IMG/VR virus record: IMGVR_UViG_3300030116_002323
Coordinates: 1-25,431 of that record
Origin: a virus
DNA length: 25,431 nucleotides
Direction: 5' to 3' (one strand)
Shown: positions 11,065 through 25,431 of the stretch, piece by piece
How the letters are laid out: every line of letters begins with the position of its first letter
How positions within the stretch are numbered: the stretch's first letter is position 1
Made by a program: the position numbers and the translations under genes
Notes under the pieces: generated by a model
The model's database searches: none
Seen by the model: only the letters and a program-made list of their open reading frames with translations
What the model was told of the DNA's origin: nothing

Positions 11065-13550
11065 TATAATCCTAACTCTAATAAAGTTACTTTTAAATTT
11101 TGTATTTTTTTAGATATAGATGTTACTATAAAAGCTATATTATTAAGATTATCACCAAAATAATAATTTAATTTATCTAAATCACTATTTTCAAATGCTA
11201 CAATATCACCACACTGCAATTTATAAAATTTAGGATTTATTAATGTTAGTGTAATTTCTGCTCTAGGTCTAGCATGTAACTGAGCATAATAATTTACATG
11301 ACCTGCATCAACATCAAAAGTGTTACTAATTTTATTATCACTAACATTATATTTAACTATACCTTTTTCATTGTTAGTAGGTATATTTAACCCATTATAA
11401 ACTACTCCATCATTACTAGTGTCTGAGTTTCTTACTAAAGCATCTAATTTTACATATTTAACATTTTCATTTGTATAACCGAATCCGAATTGATTTCTAT
11501 ACTCTGTCTCATGTTCTGAATTATAAATATAAACACTATCTTTTGCAGGGTGTGGATTTCTTGATACATTCCATTTTGTAATAACATTATCTGTCAATGC
11601 TATATTTATATTTTTATAATCATTTTCATTAATATTAAATACTACATCCTCTGATCCGTAGCTACTTTTAATAAATATGTATTTAGGAGTGTCATTTTCT
11701 TGTGTATAAATAAAGCCTCCTTCATATTGATACTGGTTTAATTTATCACTTAATGTAGTAGGTTCATTTATAGTGTCTCTTATATTCCATGAGTTTCTTA
11801 GTGTTAATAACTCATCATAATTTATAGGTGTAGTAGTTCCTATATCTGTATATCTATATAAAAGCTCTCTATGTGCTTCTAATATGCTAGTTATAGGATT
11901 ATCAGCAGTAGATCCAGTAAATGTAGCTTTTATGCCATCTGCATTACTATATAAAATTTCCTCAGGAGGATCTGTGTATGTTCTTACCTCAAATTCATTT
12001 TCATCAGTTTTTACTGAGTGCTCTGCTATTATTATAATATCATATAATCTAAAATCAGCACTTATAGTCTCTCCATCAGGATTTTCATCATATACCTCTA
12101 CTAATAACTCACCTGATTCTACACCTCTAGTTAAATCTATTAATCTATAATTAGCTGAATAATCTTGATCAGTTATACTAGCACTACCTGTTCCAAACCT
12201 TAGATTATATACTATTTCTCCATTCCATAATATTCTAACACCATTAACATCTATTGCATTAGCTGTTCTATTTATATTAAACCATTGAAATTTTACTAAT
12301 AATTTACATTTTAACTCCTCATCATTAACATGAGATAAAGTGCCATCAGGCTTTTTAAATTCTACTTGTATTTTAGTAAATGCTGATCCAATAGTGTCCC
12401 CATCTTCATCTTCTCTAACTAAAGATGGGTATGATATCCTATCTGCTTGAGGTAATGAAAATCCTACATAAGATGAGTTACTCTCATCAAATAAATTAGC
12501 TATAGTATTTTCTGCTAAATATGATGAACCTTCTGTAATTTCTACATTTACAGGTCTTATAGCAAAACCTCTCCTAATACCTCTATCAGTCCATAAGTAA
12601 TGAGCTCCATTATGATTACTAGTAGCCTGATCATAAATATGCTCTAGATGTGCTTCTGTGTTATCATTCCAAGCCTGTAAACTATATAAAGGTAAAAATT
12701 TATCATAAGCTTTATCATAATAATAAAGCATAGTCATTCTAGGAGTTAATCCAGTATCAGGATTATTATATGTATAATCCTGTGCATAATCTGATATTAC
12801 ATAAGGTGCTCTGTCATTTTTTAAAGTAAATGTTTCATTAGTATCTATTTCAACATTTATATCAGGTGCATGTAATACAGGTCTAAAAGCATTAAAATTA
12901 TATCTATTACTATCTGTTATAATTTTTGCATCTATAGGAGAATAATTAGTGCATGAATTATCTGAGCATGATATTCTATCAGAGTATATACTAGGCTGAA
13001 ATATTTGAGCATATTGTGAATATTTACCAAACACTAAAGGTATAGGTATATTATCACTAGTTTTTTTATGAATATCTATTTCATCAAATACATTTAAATT
13101 TATAGCATTTATAGTTACACTATTTATATCATGCTCTATAGATTTTATTTTACCTACGAATAACTCTAAGCAATTAGACAAGCTACTATTATTATTTAAC
13201 TGGCTATATATTTTTAATTTTCTTCCTATATATTGATTATCTGTAGGATCTTTACTGTGTATAATTTGTGAAATCCATCTAGTATTACTATAATCTCTAT
13301 ACTCTTTATTAATAACTGTTATACTTACATTACCTGTTTTAGCTACTGATTTAAAAATATCTATAGATTGCTTTATACTAGGAGCATTAGATACTATTCC
13401 CATATAATCTACAGTATCTACTACAGTATCATGATAAGCTAAACCTGTGAAATTAGTTTCATCTTCATAATATAGCTGAAAAATCCAATTTTCTTGAAAA
13501 TTACCAGTCTTTAAAGTATTATCATAATGTGCAGGAACTGTTAAAGCCAT
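11064..13550 (-). CDS. Large tail hub/baseplate-like protein, 828 residues
   Basis: ATG at 13550 overlaps the tape measure stop; the stop overlaps the fibre start. The N-terminal 200 residues are beta-rich (YDNTLKTGNFQENWIFQLYY; KSVAKTGNVSITVINKEY; KLKIYSQL; DNIPIPLVFGKYSQYAQIF). The middle contains long Asn- and Asp-rich strands, and the last 150 residues end with a hub-like motif KFYKLQCGDIVAFENSDLD and LKVTLLELGL. Directly after the tape measure and before the fibre is where siphoviruses encode the tail hub (Tal) or central fibre to which receptor-binding proteins attach. I recognise the arrangement and general pattern, not a specific named family. Confidence 0.7.
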   Translation of the reverse strand: MALTVPAHYDNTLKTGNFQENWIFQLYYEDETNFTGLAYHDTVVDTVDYMGIVSNAPSIKQSIDIFKSVAKTGNVSITVINKEYRDYSNTRWISQIIHSKDPTDNQYIGRKLKIYSQLNNNSSLSNCLELFVGKIKSIEHDINSVTINAINLNVFDEIDIHKKTSDNIPIPLVFGKYSQYAQIFQPSIYSDRISCSDNSCTNYSPIDAKIITDSNRYNFNAFRPVLHAPDINVEIDTNETFTLKNDRAPYVISDYAQDYTYNNPDTGLTPRMTMLYYYDKAYDKFLPLYSLQAWNDNTEAHLEHIYDQATSNHNGAHYLWTDRGIRRGFAIRPVNVEITEGSSYLAENTIANLFDESNSSYVGFSLPQADRISYPSLVREDEDGDTIGSAFTKIQVEFKKPDGTLSHVNDEELKCKLLVKFQWFNINRTANAIDVNGVRILWNGEIVYNLRFGTGSASITDQDYSANYRLIDLTRGVESGELLVEVYDENPDGETISADFRLYDIIIIAEHSVKTDENEFEVRTYTDPPEEILYSNADGIKATFTGSTADNPITSILEAHRELLYRYTDIGTTTPINYDELLTLRNSWNIRDTINEPTTLSDKLNQYQYEGGFIYTQENDTPKYIFIKSSYGSEDVVFNINENDYKNINIALTDNVITKWNVSRNPHPAKDSVYIYNSEHETEYRNQFGFGYTNENVKYVKLDALVRNSDTSNDGVVYNGLNIPTNNEKGIVKYNVSDNKISNTFDVDAGHVNYYAQLHARPRAEITLTLINPKFYKLQCGDIVAFENSDLDKLNYYFGDNLNNIAFIVTSISKKIQNLKVTLLELGL

Positions 13551-14935
13551 TATATTAGTCCTAATCTTCTACTATTTTCTATTTCAGGCACTATAACATC
13601 TCTTATAAAATCTGCATCTGACACAGGTGAGTGAAAATGTAGATTTACACCTCCTGCCTGTGCTGTTCCTGTGCCTCCTAATGGTGTAATATTTACTGAC
13701 TCAGCACCATTTTCACCTGCTATAATCATAGTAGGCTCTGTAACTACCTCATTCATACCATCCTCAGCAAATTTAGGCACTAAAGACTCAAATAATATAT
13801 TTACTGCTGTTGCACCTACAGCACCAGTAATTAATCCTAATAATCCTTTAGTAGAAATTTCTTTAGCTAACATTCCTGCTATTGCTTCCATTAAATAAGC
13901 TTTTATTACTTTTCTTATAGACTCTAAAATATTATCAGATGATGCACCTGTAGCTATAGCTGTTTCTAATCTTGCTACTCTTTTCTGTTCTTCTGATTGC
14001 TCTATTATTTTTGCCATTTCCTTCTCACCATCAGCTATAGTTTTAGTTTTAGCAGGTATTTTTTCTATCTTTTTTAAGTAACTATCTAAATTGTCATTTC
14101 TTTTAACTTCTACTACATTTAAATCATCTGTAGCCTGTAAAGCTTCAGCTAAAGCATCGGTTTGAGCATTTGAGTTATCTTCTACTGCTTGTGTATTAGA
14201 TTCTAAATTAGTAGTAGCCTCATCTGCTGATCCTCCTATGTCTTTAAACCCTTTTACTACTTTAGTTGTAAATTCTGCTAGTCTCCTCATACCATCAATT
14301 AAAGGTAAAATTATAGGCATAAGAATCTCACCTATAGCCTCTGCTGTGTCTCCTAGTGCATTTTTCATCTGATCCATTTGACCTGAAAATGTCTTAGCCC
14401 CTTCACTAGCTTGACCTTCAAATAAATCTGCTAATATTTCAAGACCTTCTCCACTTTTTAACTGTTCAGCAGTTAGATCCTTCATTTCAGGGACTAACTC
14501 ACCTAACTCTCCTGCCATACCTGATAAAGTTTTAGAGGTATTTCTTACAGCAGTCTCTAAAGTTTGCCCTGTAGCTTCAGCCATATCTAAGGCTATAGGT
14601 ATTATTTCTTTTATTTGTGCCTCAGACATTCCTAGTGATGCTAGATATGCCTGTTGCTCTATTATAGCCTCATCACCAAATCTAGACACCTGCTGTAATG
14701 CTGATGCTTGATCTAATAATGCCTGTGATGTTTTACCTAAACCAGTAGCTAATTTTTTTTCTGCTTCTTCTTGTCTACCATAAGCATTAATAGAGGCTGT
14801 AATACCTGCTACTAATCCCTGAGCTGACATATAAGCTAATCCTATAGCTCCTATTTTTTTAGCTACAGATCCTAAATTTCTACTAGCTTTCTCTGTGCCT
14901 TTTGTTAATAATTGTATTACTACTTTATTTGCCAT
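13550..14935 (-). CDS. Tail tape measure protein (short)
   Basis: 461 residues, ATG at 14935; the frameshifted chaperone ORF overlaps its start by 11 bases. It begins NKVVIQLLTKGTEKASRNLG, then a hydrophobic helix around 28-48 (KIGAIGLAYMSAQGLVAGIT) and a helical body with AEEKLATGLGK-type segments, FSGQMDQMKNALGDTAEAIG followed by EILMPIILPLIDG (200-215), and further hydrophobic helices at 340-385. Tape measures set tail length at about 1.5 Angstrom per residue, which predicts a short tail near 70 nm. The C-terminus has a Gly-rich segment and ends in SDADFIRDVIVPEIENSRRL. Position after the chaperones is diagnostic. Confidence 0.88.
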   Translation of the reverse strand: MANKVVIQLLTKGTEKASRNLGSVAKKIGAIGLAYMSAQGLVAGITASINAYGRQEEAEKKLATGLGKTSQALLDQASALQQVSRFGDEAIIEQQAYLASLGMSEAQIKEIIPIALDMAEATGQTLETAVRNTSKTLSGMAGELGELVPEMKDLTAEQLKSGEGLEILADLFEGQASEGAKTFSGQMDQMKNALGDTAEAIGEILMPIILPLIDGMRRLAEFTTKVVKGFKDIGGSADEATTNLESNTQAVEDNSNAQTDALAEALQATDDLNVVEVKRNDNLDSYLKKIEKIPAKTKTIADGEKEMAKIIEQSEEQKRVARLETAIATGASSDNILESIRKVIKAYLMEAIAGMLAKEISTKGLLGLITGAVGATAVNILFESLVPKFAEDGMNEVVTEPTMIIAGENGAESVNITPLGGTGTAQAGGVNLHFHSPVSDADFIRDVIVPEIENSRRLGLI

Positions 14936-15592: not shown

Positions 15593-16596
15593 TATGCTGT
15601 CTTTATACTTATTACTGTAGTAGCTGTATCTACTCCATCATACATGCCTCTATAATTTACAGTTTGCTTCCATGAATCTGCTGTATTTACTGCTACATTT
15701 TCTATCATAGCATTAGGCACAGCTATTCCCACAGAAGATGTCCCTGCACATACTATAGCCTTTTTAGCACTGTCATTAAAATTTATAGCACCACTACTAT
15801 TATCTCTTTTACATACAAAAGATCCTGTTACCTCATAAGGACTGATCACATATCCTACAGGTCTATCATTAGCTTTATCATATCCTGCTATATTTACAGA
15901 TCTGCTAATATTTGCATTAAATTCAGACATTAAAACAGATTGAGCAGATATTGTTGTAGTAGACATATCCATAAAATTCAAAGGTGTTCCTGCTGTAGTT
16001 GTTAGAGATCCACCACTACTACCTAATGTAGCTACATTATCTACCTCTGTAGGATTGTAATTAGTAATAAAAGTAGCTGTTACTTTTAATGCTCCTGCAT
16101 CTGAAAATCCATAACTAAAAGATAATCCTGTCATCATGCAAGATGTAAAAAATATATCCTTATTTAATGTAGCATCACTACTATCAGACTGTGCTCCTCC
16201 TTGCTGAATATATATAGTTACAGGAACTGCATTACTAGTCCCATGCTCATATTTTTTTACACTAGGACTAGATCCTAATAAAGCATTAGTCCCATCACCG
16301 TCTCCATACATAGCTAAACACATTCTATCTATTGCTGTAGGACTACCTAAAAACTCTAGAGATATTTCAAAGCTTTTTTTATCTTTAGCATGTTTAGCCT
16401 GATGTGTGCCCTGTGTTAATATTCCTGATTTTTGTGGTGCTACCTCTAAAGGTGCTGTAGCTTTTTCTGTAAAATTATAATTTGTGCAGTCTATAGTGTG
16501 CCATGTGCCACTATCAGCTACTGTAGGTGTTCCTAGTGTTACCTCAGTTCCTATATTGACTATAGTATCTGCTTTAGTCTGAAATGTATTAGACAT
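15592..16596 (-). CDS. Major tail tube protein
   Basis: 334 residues, ATG at 16596 with GGGAGATAATA upstream. Beta-rich, Gly/Thr/Ser-rich sequence with the start typical of tail tube proteins: TKADTIVNIGTEVTLGTPTV, then KSFEISLEFLGSPTAIDRMC (a conserved-looking strand and helix), a repeated immunoglobulin-like region around 150-200 (TGLSFSYGFSDAGALKVTAT), and C-terminal strands ending in VDTATTVISIKTA. Tail tube proteins stack as hexamers to form the tube. It lies between tail completion and tail chaperone genes, as expected. It is longer than a minimal tube protein (about 150-250 residues), so it may carry an added surface domain. Confidence 0.78.
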   Translation of the reverse strand: MSNTFQTKADTIVNIGTEVTLGTPTVADSGTWHTIDCTNYNFTEKATAPLEVAPQKSGILTQGTHQAKHAKDKKSFEISLEFLGSPTAIDRMCLAMYGDGDGTNALLGSSPSVKKYEHGTSNAVPVTIYIQQGGAQSDSSDATLNKDIFFTSCMMTGLSFSYGFSDAGALKVTATFITNYNPTEVDNVATLGSSGGSLTTTAGTPLNFMDMSTTTISAQSVLMSEFNANISRSVNIAGYDKANDRPVGYVISPYEVTGSFVCKRDNSSGAINFNDSAKKAIVCAGTSSVGIAVPNAMIENVAVNTADSWKQTVNYRGMYDGVDTATTVISIKTA

Positions 16597-16611
16597 TATT
16601 ATCTCCCTTTA

Positions 16612-17043
16612 TTATTTAACATATAAATAATTACATTTAACATTTAAATCTATTATTTGTAATTCTTCATTATCTTCATTTTCATCATCTGACACAAAAT
16701 ACTCAATAGAATCAACATAGAGACCATACATATTGCCAAAAGATTTAATATTATCAGAAATGAGCTTTTTAAGCCTGTCAGTCCTTGCCTTAGCATATTG
16801 CTCTCCTTTTTCTGTGTGTCTCTCTTGTAGGTAATACCTTACTAATATAGAGTATTCTAACTCCTCTGATTGCTGTGAAAAATTTAATGTGTCTACAGAT
16901 GTTACTGTAATTCTTATACTTTCATTTCCTGACTGTTTTTTATATTTAGAAGATATATAAACATTTTTAAAATAGTCATTTATAAAATCTCTTAATCTAT
17001 CTTCTATTTTATTATATGTTATTTTAGAATAAGTTAAACTCAT
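16612..17043 (-). CDS. Tail completion/terminator-like protein, 143 residues
   Basis: ATG at 17043 overlaps the connector stop. The fold pattern is an N-terminal helix (YNKIEDRLRDFINDYFKN), strands ESIRITVTSV and ELEYSILVRYYL, a long helix KARTDRLKKLISDNIKSFG and C-terminal strands LQIIDLNVKCNYLYV: an alpha/beta layout of about 140 residues as in lambda gpU-like terminator proteins that cap the tube at the head end. Position directly between connector and tail tube genes supports this. No catalytic motifs. Sequence similarity to gpU itself is not visible by eye, so the call rests on length, layout and order. Confidence 0.6.
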   Translation of the reverse strand: MSLTYSKITYNKIEDRLRDFINDYFKNVYISSKYKKQSGNESIRITVTSVDTLNFSQQSEELEYSILVRYYLQERHTEKGEQYAKARTDRLKKLISDNIKSFGNMYGLYVDSIEYFVSDDENEDNEELQIIDLNVKCNYLYVK

Positions 17044-18269
17044 CTATATAATCCTACACTATAAGCATTAGTATTTGTTTCAGCTATATTATGATTTCTA
17101 ACTACAATATCAAATTCATCACCTACATTCATTGTGTTACCACTAAATCTAGCATATAATCCATTACAAATCTCATCCATACCACCTGACACAGTTAATG
17201 TGTCTAAAGTTTCCCCATATAATTGATCATTACCAAATTTTTTAACTGAGCATATAGCTACACCATAAGCTCCCTGTGTAGTGCAAGTTAATTTAACTCT
17301 ATCAAATCTTTCACCTCTCCACTCTCCCCATGTCTCTACTAATTTCATAGATCCAGTATTAACTATTTCTACTATATCACCTGAGGAGTCAGTCTTATCT
17401 ACTTCAAAAGCTAATTTAATATGTCCATCATTTAATCTATCTACTATACCCGTTTTTTCTGTGTTAGTTACCTGATTATATAACTGCTCTGCATATTCTA
17501 AATCCTTAGTTTGTATCATGTATGATGCAGTTAATAAAGCATTAGCCCTTATTATACAGTAATCATATTCAGGATCTGATGCTATATCTAAATGAGCAGG
17601 AGGTATAGGTCTAGGAAATTTAGCATCTAGCAAACTACTTAACTCTTTAGCTCCATTTACTAACATTCTATTTACATAAGTTTTATAATCTTCACCTGTT
17701 TCAATTAATACATCATCATTAGGATTTCTAGATGCAGGTGAGAATAATATAAGCTGATCACTATAAGCATCATAATACCATTGATTATTCTCTGTTACTC
17801 TTACAGTTAAATGCACATTAGCACCATTTATAATAGATTTTGGTGTAGTTCCTAGCATACCTCTTTTTATTGTTAATGTATTAGTATCTATAGCCTCTAT
17901 TTGCACCTGTTCAACAACTGTAATATCACCTGAAACATATTGCAATTTTATAAAGTCTCCTAATTGTAAACCTGAGGCATCACTTACAGCTAAAGTATTA
18001 TAATTAATAGTGTCATTATCTATAATATTATCTAATAATGCCTGATTAGTTGTAGTAAGTGAGTTTCCACTAGTTCCAGATACTGCCACCTCTAATTTTT
18101 CACCATTAGAAAATAAATTAGTTATTAGTCCTGTATTATGTGCAATCCATACAGATCCAGTAATGTTATTAAAATCTCTAATTATTTCCTTACTATCATA
18201 AGAGTCTATATTAGGGATTATATCTTTTAAATCTCTTTGTGTAGCATATTTAAAATCACTTACAGCCAT
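17040..18269 (-). CDS. Head-tail connector/adaptor protein, 409 residues
   Basis: ATG at 18269. The N-terminus, FKYATQRDLKDIIPNIDSYD then IIRDFNN, looks like the start of gp6/DUF1320-type connectors. Residues 90-160 form a beta domain with a switch-like repeat (NTLAVSDASGLQLGDFIKLQ; NTLTIKRGMLGTTPKS), common in phage virion proteins. Around 195-260 a helical bundle (YKTYVNRMLVNGAKELSSLL; IIRANALLTASYMIQTKDLE) recalls the connector core. The C-terminal 120 residues are beta-rich and perhaps a decoration or carbohydrate-binding domain. The combination makes it much longer than simple connectors (about 110-150 residues); the core may be split by inserted domains. Function inferred from order, before tail completion. 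Confidence 0.55.
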   Translation of the reverse strand: MAVSDFKYATQRDLKDIIPNIDSYDSKEIIRDFNNITGSVWIAHNTGLITNLFSNGEKLEVAVSGTSGNSLTTTNQALLDNIIDNDTINYNTLAVSDASGLQLGDFIKLQYVSGDITVVEQVQIEAIDTNTLTIKRGMLGTTPKSIINGANVHLTVRVTENNQWYYDAYSDQLILFSPASRNPNDDVLIETGEDYKTYVNRMLVNGAKELSSLLDAKFPRPIPPAHLDIASDPEYDYCIIRANALLTASYMIQTKDLEYAEQLYNQVTNTEKTGIVDRLNDGHIKLAFEVDKTDSSGDIVEIVNTGSMKLVETWGEWRGERFDRVKLTCTTQGAYGVAICSVKKFGNDQLYGETLDTLTVSGGMDEICNGLYARFSGNTMNVGDEFDIVVRNHNIAETNTNAYSVGLYR

Positions 18270-18405
18270 TTTTTACCCCTTCTAACATTAATAGTTTATT
18301 ATTTTCTGCATCTTCTTTAGATGGAAATGTAGCAATATATTTACTATTTATATATAACTTAAAATCTCCACCTACTTGGATAATTTTAGCAGTATTATTA
18401 TCCAA
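18256..18405 (-). CDS. Hypothetical protein, about 49 residues
   Basis: Stop at 18256-18258, overlapping the connector start. Two starts are possible: ATG 18438 (60 residues, 41-base overlap with the preceding small gene) or the TTG at 18405, which overlaps the upstream stop in the way used elsewhere here; I prefer the latter, but both fit. The product has a strand-rich pattern KIIQVGGDFKLYINSKYIAT followed by a helix with EDAENNKLLMLEGVKN. No family recognised. It resembles short beta-hairpin/helix proteins often found near phage tails. Confidence 0.5.
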   Translation of the reverse strand: MDNNTAKIIQVGGDFKLYINSKYIATFPSKEDAENNKLLMLEGVKNGCK

Positions 18406-18550
18406 GCTTCTTTTTAACTTGAGCCCATAACTTATCATCTAATTTATTTTTAGAAGATGCTACTAAATAATCCATTAAAATTATTGCCATAGTTTTAATC
18501 ATTTGCTCAGTAAATATTTTTTTTAATATTAATCCTAATATAGTAGGCAT
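18398..18550 (-). CDS. Tiny amphipathic protein, 50 residues
   Basis: ATG at 18550 overlaps the upstream TAA (TAATG). It begins with a hydrophobic stretch LGLILKKIFTEQMIKTMAII (5-24) and continues LMDYLVASSKNKLDDKLWAQ. The hydrophobic part is short of a clean membrane helix and may lie along a membrane. With its neighbours it forms a series of tiny coupled genes after the lysozyme. It could be a holin/antiholin partner, but this is only a possibility from composition. Confidence 0.5.
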   Translation of the reverse strand: MPTILGLILKKIFTEQMIKTMAIILMDYLVASSKNKLDDKLWAQVKKKLG

Positions 18551-18666
18551 TAGTTTCTCCTATGTTTGTCTATTAATTGTAAAATATAAATTTTAATAAG
18601 TAAATATATAATCCAAATAGGTAAAGATATACCCATAATCATTAAAAAGTATTGTATATATATCAT
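18550..18666 (-). CDS. Single-helix membrane protein, 38 residues
   Basis: ATG at 18666 overlaps the upstream gene's TGA (ATGA), and its TAA overlaps the next ATG. Residues about 5-30 form one strongly hydrophobic helix (QYFLMIMGISLPIWIIYLLI), followed by a basic tail DKHRRN. The layout (short N-terminus, one helix, positive end) fits a type III holin or small regulatory membrane peptide. The junctions at both ends support translation. No family recognised. Confidence 0.5.
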   Translation of the reverse strand: MIYIQYFLMIMGISLPIWIIYLLIKIYILQLIDKHRRN

Positions 18667-19085
18667 TTTTTAGGCTTCTTATCTTTACCCCAAATTAGAT
18701 CACCATTACCTGAAACCATTTTTGAGTGTTTGTTTTGTATTCTTACAGATTTATCATCTAATATTATTTCTTTAGAGCTATCTTCCATCATGTGTGATAT
18801 TAAATCCTTACAAATTTCTACTAATGGATCAGGCTTATCTGCACCTGATAAAGATGATAAAATAGTAATTAACGAAATAACAACAGAACTTACTACACCT
18901 GAAATAACTGCTAAAGATTCAGCCTCTAAGTGCATAGCTGAAAATATAAGTGCTAAAATACATAATAAAATAACTGGTAGTGCACCTAATGACACTACAT
19001 ACATAGCCTTATCTTTTAGTATTCTCTGTGCTAATAATCTCTCAGCTTTCTTTTTATTTATTTGCTGTTGGTTTAATTCAGGCAT
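18663..19085 (-). CDS. Two-helix membrane protein with soluble C-terminus, 140 residues
   Basis: ATG at 19085 overlaps the metallophosphoesterase stop by 8 bases. An N-terminal basic helix (NQQQINKKKAERLLAQRILK) precedes two membrane helices, about 31-48 (VVSLGALPVILLCILALI) and 57-80 (LAVISGVVSSVVISLITILS), joined by a short loop. The C-terminal 60 residues are charged and soluble, with KDKKPKK at the end. This topology is seen in class II holins, but the long C-terminal domain is atypical. Placed one gene after the holin candidate, it may be a second holin, an antiholin or an unrelated membrane protein. Confidence 0.5.
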   Translation of the reverse strand: MPELNQQQINKKKAERLLAQRILKDKAMYVVSLGALPVILLCILALIFSAMHLEAESLAVISGVVSSVVISLITILSSLSGADKPDPLVEICKDLISHMMEDSSKEIILDDKSVRIQNKHSKMVSGNGDLIWGKDKKPKK

Positions 19086-19839
19086 ATATAGCTTGTCCCC
19101 ATAATGTAGTTTTACCGTTTATTATTTCTACTACCTCTACTTTAAAATCACCATTTTTAAAAAAATCAACAATAGCAAAAGCATGATTCCAATTATGTAA
19201 ATTACCTTTTAACCATTTATTTTTCTCACTACTCATATCTTTTAAACACCCTAAGCTCCATGCTGACTGTGTGCCACCTAATCCTGTCTCTGTAAATCGT
19301 TGTAAATCATGTGTATGACCATACATTATATTTTCTTTATATGATCCTAAATGTTTTTTAGCATGATGTATAGGCACATAATCACCATGTGTAAAATTAA
19401 GCTTACCTATTTTTAGCTTTTTTGTGCTAACATATTTCCAGTATTTATATCCTCTAGATTTTAAATTTAATGCTATTTCTGTTTTATATTGTGGTAAATA
19501 TGGGTGTTTTGTTACCCAATTATCTAACCACAGCTCATGATTTCCCTGTATAAAATGTCGCTCATTACATTGTATTTTATCTAATTCTTTATCTATTAAA
19601 TCCATTCCATCATTAACTAATTTAACTTCTTTATCTAGCATAGGTATTAACATCTCTAATGGTGGCTTCTCTCTATCTCTCCAATAATGTTTACTAAATA
19701 GCTCCCATTCTCCAGTGTCTCCTAAGTCTATATATATATCAGGCTTTACTACATTTATAGCCTGACATAGTATAGAAAATGCTTTTTTATCATGGACTGG
19801 TATATGTTTATCAGGAGTTACTAAAGCTCTTTTTATCAA
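19078..19839 (-). CDS. Calcineurin-like metallophosphoesterase
   Basis: 253 residues from a TTG at 19839 that overlaps the TGA of the holin candidate (TTGA). All five family motifs are visible: D10-K-H12 (PDKH), GD at 40-41 (LGDTGEW), GNHE at 99-102, H151 (THGDY) and GHTH at 174-177. These residues coordinate two metal ions that hydrolyse phosphomonoesters or phosphodiesters. Substrate is unknown; phage enzymes of this superfamily have been linked to nucleic acid end processing, but this one lies in the lysis region, not with replication genes. R94 uses CGA, one of the few CpG arginine codons seen here. Confidence 0.85.
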   Translation of the reverse strand: MIKRALVTPDKHIPVHDKKAFSILCQAINVVKPDIYIDLGDTGEWELFSKHYWRDREKPPLEMLIPMLDKEVKLVNDGMDLIDKELDKIQCNERHFIQGNHELWLDNWVTKHPYLPQYKTEIALNLKSRGYKYWKYVSTKKLKIGKLNFTHGDYVPIHHAKKHLGSYKENIMYGHTHDLQRFTETGLGGTQSAWSLGCLKDMSSEKNKWLKGNLHNWNHAFAIVDFFKNGDFKVEVVEIINGKTTLWGQAIYA

Positions 19840-19982
19840 TCTAATTCCTTATTAATTTTAATAGCTATGTAAACTAAAGTAGCTAGTGATGCTAAAGCAC
19901 TCATAATAGGAGGCACATACTCAGTCCAGTGTAGAGCACTTGTAACTATTCCTATTCCTGCTGTCCTTAAAGTGTCTACCAA
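19836..19982 (-). CDS. Small holin candidate with TTG start, 48 residues
   Basis: A frame starting TTG 19982, embedded in the last codons of the lysozyme gene (AATTGGTAG), and stopping at 19836-19838, where it overlaps the next TTG. It has an amphipathic N-terminal part, VDTLRTAGIGIVTSALHWTE, and a membrane helix PIMSALASLATLVYIAIKI (25-43), then a charged end KINKELD. Size, hydrophobic layout and position directly beside the lysozyme match small phage holins, which form membrane lesions that release or activate the endolysin. The alternative is a tiny gene of another kind, since no ATG exists; coupling overlaps at both ends argue for translation. Confidence 0.6.
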   Translation of the reverse strand: MVDTLRTAGIGIVTSALHWTEYVPPIMSALASLATLVYIAIKINKELD

Positions 19983-20386
19983 TTTTGTGCCTTTACTATA
20001 TTTGATAATTCTATAGCTCTATTAGGTGTCTGCTTTGCCCATTTACTATCTAACATTTCAGCAGATGCCTTATCCCATCTTTTAGCCTCTAAATGTGCTA
20101 TAGCTTTTTTAAACATACTAAACCCATTTACACCTAACTGATAACAACAGTTATAAACTACATCCTGCACAGGCTCAGGCATATATTTCATCCATTCAAA
20201 TTTTTTATTTACATCTTTAACTAACTTAGCTAACTTTCTCTCTAATATAATATCAGCTATATCCTGATCTAATTTTAAATCTTTAATAGCAAATCCATAG
20301 CCTATAGTCAATACTTGAGCTGAGCATAAATAAGCTGTAGACCTAAATCCTTCATGTTTTTTTATATCTTCTATTAATTTATTCAT
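19976..20386 (-). CDS. Endolysin, GH24 T4-type lysozyme (E/C/T active site)
   Basis: 136 residues, ATG at 20386 overlapping the upstream TAA, GGAGG ribosome binding site. The N-terminus gives the T4-lysozyme-family motif: E12 (HEGFR), C21 (YLCSA) and T27 (LTIGYG). It matches the E-8aa-(D/C)-5aa-T triad, with Cys replacing the usual Asp; such Cys variants are known in this family and D20C T4 lysozyme stays active. The rest is helical (EPVQDVVYNCCYQLGVNGFS; WDKASAEMLDSKWAKQTPNR). No signal peptide is visible, so export would depend on a holin. It hydrolyses peptidoglycan glycan strands to release virions. Confidence 0.92.
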   Translation of the reverse strand: MNKLIEDIKKHEGFRSTAYLCSAQVLTIGYGFAIKDLKLDQDIADIILERKLAKLVKDVNKKFEWMKYMPEPVQDVVYNCCYQLGVNGFSMFKKAIAHLEAKRWDKASAEMLDSKWAKQTPNRAIELSNIVKAQNW

Positions 20387-22386
20387 TATGGAGTCCCTCC
20401 TGATTGAAATGTATTAGATTGCCTAGCTGTAGGATTTACAGCCTTAGCACCAGTGTTATTTGATCTATTATATCTATTAATAGGACTATTAGGTGTATCA
20501 TTTACAATAGGACTTAAATTGTTTCCGTTATATTTATAATAAAAAGAACCAGTCCCATAAATATTAGCAGTATTATTTTTTACGTGCATTTCACCATTTA
20601 TAAAAAATGGAATCCATGATGATAATCCTGAATATTTATATATAGAACTAGACTGGTTATAATTACCACTATCACTAGATAAATTAAAAGGTGTTCCTGA
20701 ATTATATATGGCTGTAATATTAGATTGATCTAGTGCTCCATTCCATACACAAAACTCATCAAATCTAGTAGGAGCACCTGAATCTGTGTTATTTGATATT
20801 AAATTATCCTGACTATTACTAAATAAACTATTACCTGCTAATCCTGTATATACCTGCCTATTAACTGCTACACTAGGATTAGGTCTGTAAACTTCTGAAA
20901 TGGTATGAGTTAGAGCTAAAACACCATTTAAATATATTTTAAATTCAGACTCATCATAAGTAACTATTAAATTAAACCAATCATATATAATATTAGGCAT
21001 ATTATAATTAGTCTCTAAATCTTGATAGGTTATTAAAGAATTATTTTCTCCTGCACTAGTTCCTGCTTTAGTTAAACCTACATACAGAGATGATCCTGCA
21101 TCAAATATAATTAAATGAAAATAATTAGCATTTTGATCTAAAATAGATCCATTAAAACCCTTTCTAAATGATGCTGATCCTGAGCTATCTTTAACACCGT
21201 ATGAGTAAGGTCTAAAAAATCCTCCTATTGACTTGATCCATACACTGCAAGTATGCTGATTATTAGTTAAATGATCACTATTGCTAGTAATATAAGGTAA
21301 AAATCCCATTCCTCCTAATTCATTACTAAAACTATAATCATTAGAAAAACTTACAGCAGTAGCTGTAGATATATTTGTCAATGATGCTGAATTACTCATT
21401 AAATTATCTTGTGCATCCTCTGCTGTTACATATATATCATAGCTAGTATTTGCTGATAAACCAGTAAAATTTATATTTACTAAAGTAGTAGATGTTACAT
21501 TTAAAACACTAGAACTATCTGCTACTGTAACAGATCCATAATTACTACCTGCCTTAACTTGTGCTGATGTAGGAGCTGTAGATCCATTAGGAACTGCTAT
21601 GCCATACACATTACCTAGCTCATTTATTTGGCATAAAATTCTAATAACTGTATCAGATGGAGTAGAGTGTAAATATATAGAATTACCAAACTGATCAGGT
21701 ATAAATTCAGGTGCTACTGTATCATTATTATCAGTGTCTCCAGTATTATCATTATCATCATTTGTTAGTGTAGTTGCAGTTAATTGACTATATAAAATAG
21801 TAGAAATATTATCTTGATCATCTTGTATAGCTAAATATAAATCATAACTAGTGCCTACAGTTAATCCTTCAAATATTATATTATTTTGACTAACTGATGT
21901 AACATCTATAACTTTTACTAAATTATCAGCTAAACTAACATCACCACTATCAGTCCCTGCTATTACTTGATTTACAGATGGCTCTGTAGCATCATTAGGC
22001 AATAATACAGCATGAGCTGTGCCATTTTCATTCATAGAAAAACTATATATTATATGATTTTCACCTACTTCATTTATAGATATATCACTCAATAACACAG
22101 GAGGTGTAGTATCACTACTAGGATCATAATTAACTCCTACCCAGTTTTTAATACCATCATTAATAGATGATCCTGCAAAATATCTTTTTAATCTATCATT
22201 TAATGATAAAATACTATCACCTTGATTAGTTCCTGCTGTTCCTGCTTCATTATACAGTGCATCATTTAATGATCCTTTATTTAATGGAAATTTTAAATTT
22301 AAATAATCTTTTACCTGACCATTTAAATCATTTTCATTAGATGTGTCATGGTCAAATCCTGTTTTTAATTTGTCATTTATTGACAT
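20386..22386 (-). CDS. Large virion fibre/decoration-like protein with Ig-like and LamG-like domains
   Basis: 666 residues, ATG at 22386 with a strong AAGGAGG. The first 90 residues hold repeated SxND motifs (SINDKLKTGF, SLNDALYNEAG, SLNDRLKRYF, SINDGIKNWV), perhaps a capsid attachment segment. Residues about 95-205 and 225-345 are two related Ig/fibronectin-III-like domains with TPPVLLSDISINEVGENHII and LTVGTSYDLYLAIQDDQDNI-type strands. Residues about 345-575 look like a LamG/concanavalin-like jelly-roll (FKIYLNGVLALTHTISEV; FDEFCVWNGALDQSNITAIY), usually sugar binding. The C-terminus is Asn/Ser-rich. Position right after the capsid terminator suggests a head fibre or other virion surface protein; which is inference. 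Confidence 0.65.
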   Translation of the reverse strand: MSINDKLKTGFDHDTSNENDLNGQVKDYLNLKFPLNKGSLNDALYNEAGTAGTNQGDSILSLNDRLKRYFAGSSINDGIKNWVGVNYDPSSDTTPPVLLSDISINEVGENHIIYSFSMNENGTAHAVLLPNDATEPSVNQVIAGTDSGDVSLADNLVKVIDVTSVSQNNIIFEGLTVGTSYDLYLAIQDDQDNISTILYSQLTATTLTNDDNDNTGDTDNNDTVAPEFIPDQFGNSIYLHSTPSDTVIRILCQINELGNVYGIAVPNGSTAPTSAQVKAGSNYGSVTVADSSSVLNVTSTTLVNINFTGLSANTSYDIYVTAEDAQDNLMSNSASLTNISTATAVSFSNDYSFSNELGGMGFLPYITSNSDHLTNNQHTCSVWIKSIGGFFRPYSYGVKDSSGSASFRKGFNGSILDQNANYFHLIIFDAGSSLYVGLTKAGTSAGENNSLITYQDLETNYNMPNIIYDWFNLIVTYDESEFKIYLNGVLALTHTISEVYRPNPSVAVNRQVYTGLAGNSLFSNSQDNLISNNTDSGAPTRFDEFCVWNGALDQSNITAIYNSGTPFNLSSDSGNYNQSSSIYKYSGLSSWIPFFINGEMHVKNNTANIYGTGSFYYKYNGNNLSPIVNDTPNSPINRYNRSNNTGAKAVNPTARQSNTFQSGGTP

Positions 22387-22404
22387 AAACCTCCTTATAA
22401 TTAA

Positions 22405-22425
22405 GGGGAGGCACTAAACCTCCCC
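22405..22425 (-). terminator. Hairpin terminator/attenuator after the capsid gene
   Basis: GGGGAGG at 22405-22411 pairs with CCTCCCC at 22419-22425 around a seven-base loop. The GC-rich 7-bp stem stands out in this AT-rich genome. On the minus strand it is followed by TTAATTAT, not a strong T-run, so termination would be partial. A partial terminator right after the major capsid gene would make capsid mRNA more abundant than downstream mRNA, as in many phages. Confidence 0.7.
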
Positions 22426-22446
22426 CAAATTAACACACATTAACTA

Positions 22447-23304
22447 TTACGAAACATCATGAGTAATTAATACACCATGAGAGTCCTGTCCTTCACCTAC
22501 ACCATAGTATCCTCTACCTACAATATGGAAACCTCCAACTACTGCATCTCTTTCAGTTTCTATATTAACTAAGCCCTGACTACCTATAGCACAAACTATA
22601 GCACCTTTAGCAAACATGCCTGATGGATTGTCATTACTACCATCTTCTATTACACCTTCAGAATGATATACACCTGTCAATCCAATTTGTGTTACAAATC
22701 CTGTAGAGGCAAACTCCTCAGCAGGTGTAGTGTTACTAAATCCAGTTACAGCAGATGTATCTAACAATAATGGTCTCAAACCTTTACCACCATATATACC
22801 TTTAGCATTTGAAACAAAACTAAAAGGAGCTATACCTCCTGCACTTTTAATCATTCTCATAGCATCAAATAAATGTGTTAAAGTTATTTGAGTTGATGCT
22901 CCTCCTTGTGTTTGGCTAAAATCAGCAAATAAAGCACATACATCTAAATCAAATTTTTGAGCTACTGCATTACCCATAATAGCTCCTAAATCTGCACCTA
23001 CATTAGCACCTCCAAAATATGCTACATCTGCTACTGTAGTATGTGTAGACTTTTGATCTATTTTAACCTGTCTATCTGATGCTGTTATTTTTCTCATTGT
23101 AGATTTACCTGACTCAGTTCCGTCTACTTGTCCACTTGTTATCTGTGGATAAATAGGAAAATTAACTACAGCATTACCCTGAGTTGCTTGTGAAGATGTT
23201 ATTAAAGGTAATGTTACATTAACATTCTGAAACTTAAAAACAGCTTCACCCTTCATTACTCCCATAGCCTTATCTATACTACTTGCATCTGTAAAATCTG
23301 ACAT
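22447..23304 (-). CDS. Major capsid protein (HK97 fold likely)
   Basis: 285 residues, ATG at 23304. Gly/Ala/Val-rich with helices and a long beta region: VTLPLITSSQATQGNAVVNF (about 30-49) and a helix with VADVAYFGGANVGADLGAIM (90-110), NAVAQKFDLDVCALFADFSQ (112-131), LTHLFDAMRMIKSAGGIAPF (142-161) as the probable A-domain spine, and a C-terminal strand GAIVCAIGSQGLVNIETERD (about 236-255). Order (scaffold, small protein, capsid, terminator) and composition fit the HK97-fold family in siphoviruses that do not process the capsid protein. The short N-arm agrees with a separate scaffold gene. Confidence 0.85.
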   Translation of the reverse strand: MSDFTDASSIDKAMGVMKGEAVFKFQNVNVTLPLITSSQATQGNAVVNFPIYPQITSGQVDGTESGKSTMRKITASDRQVKIDQKSTHTTVADVAYFGGANVGADLGAIMGNAVAQKFDLDVCALFADFSQTQGGASTQITLTHLFDAMRMIKSAGGIAPFSFVSNAKGIYGGKGLRPLLLDTSAVTGFSNTTPAEEFASTGFVTQIGLTGVYHSEGVIEDGSNDNPSGMFAKGAIVCAIGSQGLVNIETERDAVVGGFHIVGRGYYGVGEGQDSHGVLITHDVS

Positions 23305-24796: not shown

Positions 24797-25431
24797 ACCT
24801 CTACACCTCTAGCTGTTACAGGATTATAATTTTTTTTGCTACCTATAAAATTATCTGCTTTTTTATTTTCTAGCTTTACTGTTGGTGTAAGCATAGTCCA
24901 TCTATGTCTACAATTATAGCCACCTCCATCAGTAAAAGCACTTGGAAATCTTTTATCTATTTCTTTTTTTGTTAAAGATCCTGCACTGATCATCTCTAAA
25001 CACACATCCCTAGTTCTTTCATCTAATGCACCCTGATAATAATACTTAGTATCATCAGGCATATCCTCAGTCATAAGCTCAGTTACTGACCTAGAGTAGC
25101 TATTTAATGATGTATTAGCTAATGTCTTAGCTTGTTCTTTAGTTAATACACCCCCAAATCCGTTTAAAATGCTATCTGTAAGCTCACTTTCTGTTAGTCC
25201 TGCTATTATACCCCTAGACAGTTCTTTTTTCATTGTATTTGCAAAATTTTTACACTCACCTACATAAAAAGTTCTATCTATTTCTACTAACGACTGTAAA
25301 CCTGCTTCAGATACAGCTCCAAATCCTTCCATATTTTCTAAAATACTTGTATAAGCATTTAATAATATTTCTATGTCTCCCTGTAGGTTTAATGTATTTA
25401 AGATGTAATCCTCAAAATCTATAGCACTTAA
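24793..25431 (-). CDS. MuF-type head morphogenesis protein, C-terminal part (N-terminus at the left end)
   Basis: Continuation of the gene whose start is at 283 across the circular junction; the frame is open to the right edge and the last 154 bases duplicate the first. The signature at residues about 185-240 of the full 255-residue protein is characteristic: SVTELMTEDMPDDTKYYYQG, ALDERTRDVCLEMI, and GGGYNCRHRWTML near the end, the D-x-RT...C...CRH pattern of MuF domains. Some related proteins carry toxin domains at the C-terminus; none is present here. MuF proteins enter the head and aid assembly. The stop at 24793 overlaps the next gene by ATGA. Confidence 0.88.
   Translation of the reverse strand, partial: LSAIDFEDYILNTLNLQGDIEILLNAYTSILENMEGFGAVSEAGLQSLVEIDRTFYVGECKNFANTMKKELSRGIIAGLTESELTDSILNGFGGVLTKEQAKTLANTSLNSYSRSVTELMTEDMPDDTKYYYQGALDERTRDVCLEMISAGSLTKKEIDKRFPSAFTDGGGYNCRHRWTMLTPTVKLENKKADNFIGSKKNYNPVTARGVEV
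25278..25431. repeat. Right copy of the 154-bp terminal overlap
   Basis: Matches 1-154 at 151 of 154 bases, with transitions at the positions matching left-copy bases 22, 41 and 77. All lie in the MuF gene and are silent. See the left copy for interpretation. Confidence 0.9.

Follow-up and report, generated by a model that had tools for sequence, protein, structure and literature searches.

The seven overlapping open reading frames (ORFs) at positions 18256-20386 on the minus strand of the virus record IMGVR_UViG_3300030116_002323 (IMG/VR) probably constitute a late, translationally coupled lysis cassette of a marine phage, in which a lysozyme is accompanied by a putative holin of 48 amino acids (aa) and by accessory proteins. 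The window analyzed here is the whole record of 25,431 bases (positions 1 to 25,431; GC content 30%). All seven ORFs are present where the first-pass annotation had put them. They overlap each other, and relatives preserve their order, such that its claim of a coupled seven-gene block is borne out.

From the lysozyme onward, the block encodes the lysozyme or endolysin itself (19976..20386, 136 aa, ATG start), a TTG-started 48-aa protein with a single transmembrane (TM) segment (19836..19982), a TTG-started calcineurin-like metallophosphoesterase of 253 aa (19078..19839), a 140-aa protein termed p140 with a charged N-terminal helix, two hydrophobic helices and a C-terminal tail (18663..19085), a 38-aa single-TM protein with a basic C-terminus termed p38 (18550..18666), the amphipathic 50-aa protein p50 with the motif (S/T)xxKxDDxxW (18398..18550), and a 49-aa protein devoid of a TM segment (18256..18405). 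For the last ORF, the TTG start at 18405 fits relatives of 44-46 aa; the ATG at 18438 gives 60 aa. The overlaps amount to 7 (lysozyme and 48-aa gene), 4, 8, 4, 1, and 8 nucleotides (nt) within the block and to 1 and 14 nt at its edges. Since overlaps of 1-11 nt are also found among other listed gene pairs, the tight packing is the style of the whole genome.

Related loci were gathered with the 140-aa, phosphoesterase, lysozyme, and 50-aa genes, which gave 244 loci including the window; their genes were called and clustered. Prevalence counts over these loci are biased by the query genes, and some loci share one contig. Co-occurrence was studied in 71 non-redundant cassettes, each with a phosphoesterase of either kind (see below) and at least 2.5 kb on each side. 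Neither the window nor L004 belongs to this set, and the tests on co-occurrence and exclusivity ignore relatedness.

The order lysozyme, 48-aa protein, phosphoesterase, p140, p38, p50, 49-aa protein, and tail gene was found again on two contigs (loci L002/L006/L085 and L003/L007/L084, respectively), both with one additional ORF of 82 aa between p140 and p38. A third contig, L004, reveals the same order without the 82-aa ORF and ends after the 49-aa gene. Because the gene order recurs on other contigs, the block is not a product of chance. The first-pass annotation had proposed to look for this order in metagenomic phages and would have given up the block if no small ORF were conserved or translated there; the order is found on the three contigs, and the small ORFs are conserved. 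Ratios of nonsynonymous to synonymous substitution rates (dN/dS) were determined for the window genes against L085 and L004, and are given in this order. The lysozyme (0.24, 0.15), the 48-aa protein (0.08, 0.12), the phosphoesterase (0.09, 0.10), and p50 (0.42, 0.25) show values well below 1 and are real genes. For p140 (0.09, 0.74) and p38 (0.91, 0.12), the ratio is low in one of the two comparisons. The 49-aa ORF, present in 9 of the 244 loci, is the least certain gene of the block because its values are 0.57 and 0.67.

Only the lysozyme among the block proteins has a clear lysis family. It matches PF00959 (Phage_lysozyme) with an E-value of 9e-13 (49.1 bits versus a cut-off of 22.3) and the endolysin family phrog_7 with an E-value of 6e-22. 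Catalysis in Phage_lysozyme members relies on an E-(D/C)-T arrangement. The pattern E..(D/C)..TIG is preserved in 80 of 81 distinct relatives, 48 of them with the C form and 32 with the D form, and the window lysozyme reads E..C..TIG. We rejected a signal-anchor-release (SAR) endolysin, as no hydrophobic N-terminal anchor is seen in the 81 sequences: the maximal Kyte-Doolittle hydropathy (KD17) of the N-terminal 40 aa has a median of 0.58 and a highest value of 1.52. Since its N-terminus is not hydrophobic, the lysozyme should stay in the cytoplasm and should need a holin.

Position, topology, and prevalence make the 48-aa protein the best candidate for this holin. It has one TM segment (maximal KD19 1.87), and its family occurs in 119 of the 244 loci. 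Regarding position, in 113 cases the gene stands immediately after the lysozyme in 22, immediately before p50 in 35, and immediately before the phosphoesterase in 33. Among 22 diverse family members, none matched a Pfam holin family and a single one gave a weak match to a PHROG holin (E-value 0.011). The 48-aa family (38 of 71 cassettes) and a coil+TM family, c27 (10 of 71), share no cassette, as expected if both fill one place.

A comparable pattern emerges for the other membrane proteins. p140 and p38 occur in 18 and 17 of the 244 loci, respectively, and together in all six non-redundant cassettes that have p140. All six, and one further cassette, also contain the 82-aa ORF family, which is absent from the window and L004 although both carry p140 and p38. 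Two further families, c4 (TM+coil, 25/71) and c12 (23/71), never co-occur (Fisher p 3e-6). p140 (6/71) is found with neither of them, and 54 of the 71 cassettes have one of the three. Likewise, the 253-aa phosphoesterase (60/71) and a 404-aa phosphoesterase with a zinc-ribbon-like N-terminus (11/71) are never seen together, and 17 cassettes contain none of p50, family c28, and a second DD-containing family described below. The natural reading of these sequence data is that the cassette would be made up of exchangeable places for a wall enzyme, a holin, an envelope protein, a phosphoesterase, and a small amphipathic protein.

For p140 itself, the AF2 model predicts helices at residues 6-50, 55-79, and 87-101 with a mean pLDDT of only 61, and the maximal KD19 is 2.89. 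No relative of p140 was found in named phages, none among PDB sequences up to an E-value of 1, and, using this weak model, no fold in BFVD below an E-value of 1e-3. The c12 protein (L010:6778-7143, L018:6768-7133; alignment A9) has one TM segment and probably a beta-rich tail. A by-eye resemblance of this tail to the MscS beta domain was discarded, given an hhalign probability of 3.3 and a best PDB match (E-value 0.22) to an unrelated enzyme.

The phosphoesterase matches phrog_221 with an E-value of 1e-24. Calcineurin-like metallophosphoesterases carry the motifs DxH, GD, GNH, H, and GHxH. Among 25 aligned sequences, D41, N100, H101, H151, H175, and H177 are invariant and D10 and H12 are conserved to at least 90%; the catalytic motifs are thus intact. 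Membership of the calcineurin-like superfamily is clear from sequence and model, and the subfamily is not fixed by them: Pfam Metallophos_2 reaches 16.4 bits, under its cut-off of 27, a profile of the phosphoesterase itself has no match among PDB sequences at an E-value of 0.01, and the AF2 model (pLDDT 89.8) matches the folds of the exonuclease subunit PolD DP1 (best Z 15.8), LpxH (15.2), and Mre11/SbcD (14.5) about equally well. Since these three fold families tie, the model leaves both a lipid and a nucleic acid possible as substrate. The 404-aa enzyme (L104:6436-7650 and 33 other loci) matches the exonuclease family phrog_284 with an E-value of 3e-58; it comes after the lysozyme where the 253-aa enzyme is absent, often before the 48-aa family. 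A distant relative of the phosphoesterase (E-value 2e-5 in a small search) lies approximately 0.9 kb after the M15 peptidase gene of Pelagibacter phage HTVC026P.

The most widely shared accessory protein of the block is p50. Its residues 6-49 match positions 10-53 of the 58 positions of phrog_402 (E-value 2.3e-9), and phrog_2738 is matched with an E-value of 5e-5; both families are annotated without function, and neither is mentioned in the literature searched. Matches to the p50 profile, the second DD family counted in, occur in 132 of the 244 loci. The DD pair is invariant in the 23 sequences of alignment A1 and is DN in one other member. The second small family (NWEY..KLSPSKKDDxxW; alignment A2; L008:8815-8967, L048:1344-1490, and others) has a p50-like DD motif (hhalign probability 90) and can stand in tandem with p50 (L048, L079). 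Against the PDB, the p50 profile gave chance-level matches only (best E-value 0.57). Among the viral loci found by p50, represented by the best 80 of 153 relatives, the phosphoesterase lies within 2 kb in 70, the 48-aa family in 42, and either of them in 75. The link to the phosphoesterase is partly circular because the 12 sequences of the scan alignment A3 all stem from the window and from loci first found through phosphoesterase or lysozyme scans.

Outside this phage group, relatives of p50 were reached in 12 lineages, which are not a random sample; L267, L268, and L279 were seen in approximately 3.1 kb only, and the gene neighbors in the cyanopodoviruses were not scored by profile. Six of the 12 lineages reveal a family-confirmed peptidoglycan hydrolase or holin within approximately 1.5 kb of p50. 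The next gene is a phrog_873 member (described as endolysin, head category) in Vibrio autolykivirus 1.249.A, a phrog_465 endolysin in L251, and an M15 peptidase (E-value 1e-14) in L268. An M15 peptidase (PF08291, E-value 3e-12) is located nearby on the other strand in the N4-like Pseudoalteromonas phage pYD6-A, and another one (E-value 2e-12) approximately 1 kb downstream of p50 in L264. L262 encodes a LydA holin (PF16083, E-value 2e-23) two genes upstream of p50, with a lytic-enzyme-like ORF without family match in between. Plausible but unproven enzymes stand beside p50 in L263 (DUF5675) and L267 (motif only). Furthermore, a TM+coil or coil+TM protein, judged by eye, is found beside p50 or one gene off in pYD6-A, 1.249.A, L252, L263, L264, L267, and L268. 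We conclude that p50 is a widely shared and probably lysis-associated protein.

The orientation of the p50 domain appears to differ between these forms. The cyanopodoviruses P-GSP1 and P-SSP3 carry it as the C-terminal end of a longer protein with a signal-peptide-like start, which would make the domain periplasmic; a cytoplasmic location is suggested by the forms in which a TM segment is present at the N-terminus (L251, L252). Such cyanopodovirus proteins are encoded at L170:3449-4159 and L167:4386-5102 (phrog_1755/phrog_848), and for many other cyanophages the match is confined to the portion preceding the p50 domain. The contig of L251 is binned as Archaeoglobus, yet it has tailed-phage-like genes and an M15-type endolysin. 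As archaea, to our knowledge, lack bacterial peptidoglycan, this is possibly a binning error. Used as scan query, the p50 of pYD6-A found no viral relative.

Taken together, lysis would probably proceed as follows. The lysozyme would build up in the cytoplasm until the 48-aa single-TM protein, acting as holin, permeabilizes the inner membrane at a set time; once released, the lysozyme would cut the wall. p50 and the module of p140 and p38 may act at the membrane interface as accessories, which set the timing or aid envelope disruption, and would fill places that other marine phages give to different small membrane proteins. The phosphoesterase may be an enzymatic partner or a passenger of the cassette.

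Several observations weigh against such a lysis cassette, most of them concerning p50. A peptidoglycan hydrolase cluster lies within 3.5 kb in only 17 of the 80 p50-seeded viral loci, and for c46, the main one of these clusters, the call as an enzyme comes from a motif only. Two whole records combine p50 with a match to an endolysin family at a distance of 11-13 kb; of 12 records, 8 lack a match to either of the two endolysin families searched. No lysis gene was seen near p50 in 4 of the 12 outside lineages (PJNS034, cyanopodoviruses, L252, L279), where not every neighbor was scored. Since, within this phage group, p50 is linked more closely with the phosphoesterase than with an endolysin, it could have a non-lytic late function. 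In addition, the 48-, 140-, and 38-aa proteins have no match to any described Pfam holin family, and the absence of p140 beside c4 and c12, with six p140 cassettes, could be due to chance or descent.

These points lead to the alternative that lysis is confined to the lysozyme and the 48-aa protein, while the phosphoesterase and the 140-, 38-, 50-, and 49-aa proteins stem from adjoining late genes with unrelated roles in DNA processing, in the virion, or as morons. Besides the neighborhood of p50, the phosphoesterases speak for it: the replacement enzyme, with its zinc-ribbon-like N-terminus and PHROG exonuclease matches, points to nucleic acids, and PolD DP1 and Mre11 rank among the best fold matches of the 253-aa enzyme. 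We nevertheless consider this alternative rather unlikely, since p50 also has holin or peptidoglycan hydrolase genes nearby in lineages that show no phosphoesterase of this kind beside it, and since c4 and c12, and perhaps p140 too, act as alternatives in one place. Similarly doubtful is the reading that the 48-, 140-, and 38-aa proteins, to which the first-pass annotation ascribed a holin-like topology, are each true holins or form a set of holin and antiholin, although the block may contain more than one holin-like protein. All three do contain hydrophobic segments (p38 with a maximal KD19 of 2.24), and multiplicity has precedent in the Gordonia and P2 phages discussed below. However, p140 and p38 are far rarer than the 48-aa protein among the 244 loci, and p140 shows a long, charged helix at its N-terminus and a tail at its C-terminus, in a model too weak to classify it.

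It is still less probable, and in our view hardly to be expected, that p50 is a disruptin-like cationic peptide, which would break the outer membrane in place of spanins. The block region has no lipobox ORF, and the p50 members of 22 representatives, L251 and L252 included, are cationic with a median net charge of +6 (range +2 to +12). The phiKT protein gp28, which we take to be a disruptin, is like the marine p50 members in size and charge (56 aa, +7). But nine members from outside the group without N-terminal TM extension carry charges of -1 to +4, the conserved acidic DD pair would be odd for such a peptide, and gp28 belongs to another PHROG. It matches phrog_35982 only, on which ground p50 as a gp28-type disruptin by homology was rejected, and it has no DD motif. 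A lysis cassette with the 48-aa protein as holin and p50 among its accessories thus remains our preferred reading.

The first-pass annotation had further regarded it as unusual that the lysis genes stand between the head and tail modules. This part is not supported; supported is its coupled block in which several small membrane proteins accompany a lysozyme. For distinct lysozyme genes of relatives with enough sequence, a capsid or scaffold gene is found at most 4 kb upstream in 36 of 49, and a gene of a tail-side cluster at most 6 kb downstream in 24 of 32, two of these clusters being only partly supported as tail. The same placement thus occurs in most testable relatives. P2 and P2-like phages have their lysis genes between the capsid and tail-completion genes, and a holin and an antiholin gene are reported for P2 (PMC3091744). 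The P2 module (Y, K, lysA, lysB, lysC) is like our block in this position and in combining an endolysin with several membrane proteins (PMC3091744). It differs in its Rz/Rz1-like spanin pair: no spanin lipoprotein was detected by lipobox pattern on both strands of 16500-22500, using a simple pattern that could miss unusual lipoboxes. This comparison is one of gene organization. The sole lipobox candidate of the window lies at 526 on the other strand.

Phage N4 offers a second parallel. Its five-protein cassette gp60/60a-gp61-gp62-gp63, which includes a pinholin and a lysis regulator, was shown experimentally (preprint PMC12642591). It resembles the block as a multi-protein cassette and differs by its SAR endolysin and spanins; a search of 25 kb of N4 revealed no p50. 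In pYD6-A, whose portal is 46% identical to N4 gp59, the p50 relative and TM-coil genes are same-strand neighbors of the portal gene, with the M15 gene and a PhoH-like gene in between on the other strand. The lysis genes of N4 are the neighbors of the portal gene on that same side, and the pYD6-A genes lie at the portal-side end of the interval corresponding to gp60-gp63. As no counterpart of gp64, the outer flank in N4, is detectable in pYD6-A, this comparison is anchored on the portal side only. Cassettes with up to four holin-like genes are described for Gordonia phages (PMC9671378), which, at the level of gene content, are alike in having several small membrane proteins and differ in their Gram-positive hosts. 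A virion-associated role is proposed in a study on phage Jorvik, a relative of 1.249.A, for its Slt protein (PMC10589892). By analogy, gene 19 of 1.249.A could encode a virion-associated enzyme rather than an endolysin.

The placement is known from P2 and the multiplicity from P2, N4, and the Gordonia phages; both are ordinary. New in this study are the modular parts list and the link of phrog_402 to lysis. Phage lysis has been worked out in few model phages, as stated in PMC9671378, and among the titles retrieved on pelagiphage lysis or on a metallophosphoesterase with a lysis cassette, none dealt with this block. The parts list for a modular marine cassette comprises an unrecognized family of candidate holins present in roughly half of the collected loci, exchangeable membrane modules, and phrog_402 with lysis neighbors in several unrelated viruses. 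Isolated phages, too, carry phrog_402 (Pseudoalteromonas phage pYD6-A, Vibrio phage 1.249.A, E. coli phage PJNS034), such that its role is directly testable.

Matches to phrog_402 were also found in 28 of 199 genomes of one phylum and in none of 14 control genomes. Of the 32 matches, 28 fall in ORFs of 351-423 aa and four in small ORFs. Eleven of the long ORFs were aligned, and their profile finds the MscS and YnaI structures; one ORF scored against Pfam is MscS. The matching segment, reading like KRTKTTLDD, is the first helix plus linker of MscS-like channels. Profile-profile comparison gave a score of 34.9 versus a maximum of 17.8 in 150 column shuffles. The signal is weaker for channels not chosen by p50 similarity: their score is 23.2, with 60 shuffles reaching 19.2 at most, and the segment is matched by 5 of these 28 channels and by 0 of 20 from an archaeal class. 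Membership of p50 in the MscS channels was rejected: it aligns to approximately 44 columns near the MscS N-terminus only, without the pore helix and the beta domain, and the likeness is one of a segment. We consider it very unlikely that phrog_402 is an undescribed lysis factor common to tailed and tailless viruses (Duplodnaviria and Varidnaviria), which would imitate, or have arisen from, the first helix and linker of an LDD-type MscS subfamily and promote lysis through tension-gated channels of the host or as a minimal tension-responsive pore. The resemblance may serve as a lead and is possibly due to convergence.

With regard to the record as a whole, positions 1-154 and 25278-25431 form an end overlap with 151 of 154 bases identical. 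Because of this overlap, the record probably represents a complete, permuted genome with three bases differing between its ends. On the minus strand, the genes studied follow the order terminase, portal, and then, across the record ends, head morphogenesis protein, scaffold, capsid, and a 666-aa LamG-like protein, followed by the block and by tail genes, among them the tape measure; the portal and the scaffold were assigned from their position. On the head side, the terminase (phrog_2, E-value 5e-43) and the head morphogenesis protein are situated upstream of the major capsid protein (22447..23304, minus strand), which was identified by tblastn with 27-30% identity to the annotated capsids of five records, four Pelagibacter phages and DSL-LC06. 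The terminase has its nearest relatives, with up to 41% identity, in quite different phages, and no named phage is similar to the record in a search at the DNA level. The first gene on the tail side encodes a 409-aa structural protein (17040..18269, minus strand; phrog_1101 tail, E-value 1e-3), found in 55 of the 244 loci, and the tape measure protein is encoded at 13550..14935 on the minus strand (phrog_991, E-value 3e-10). Between the capsid gene and the lysozyme lies the gene of the 666-aa LamG/fn3-like protein (20386..22386, minus strand), which has weak matches to Laminin_G_3 (E-value 3e-5) and fn3 (E-value 1e-3), both below the Pfam cut-off. Its relatives, with 38-41% identity, adjoin the same genes.

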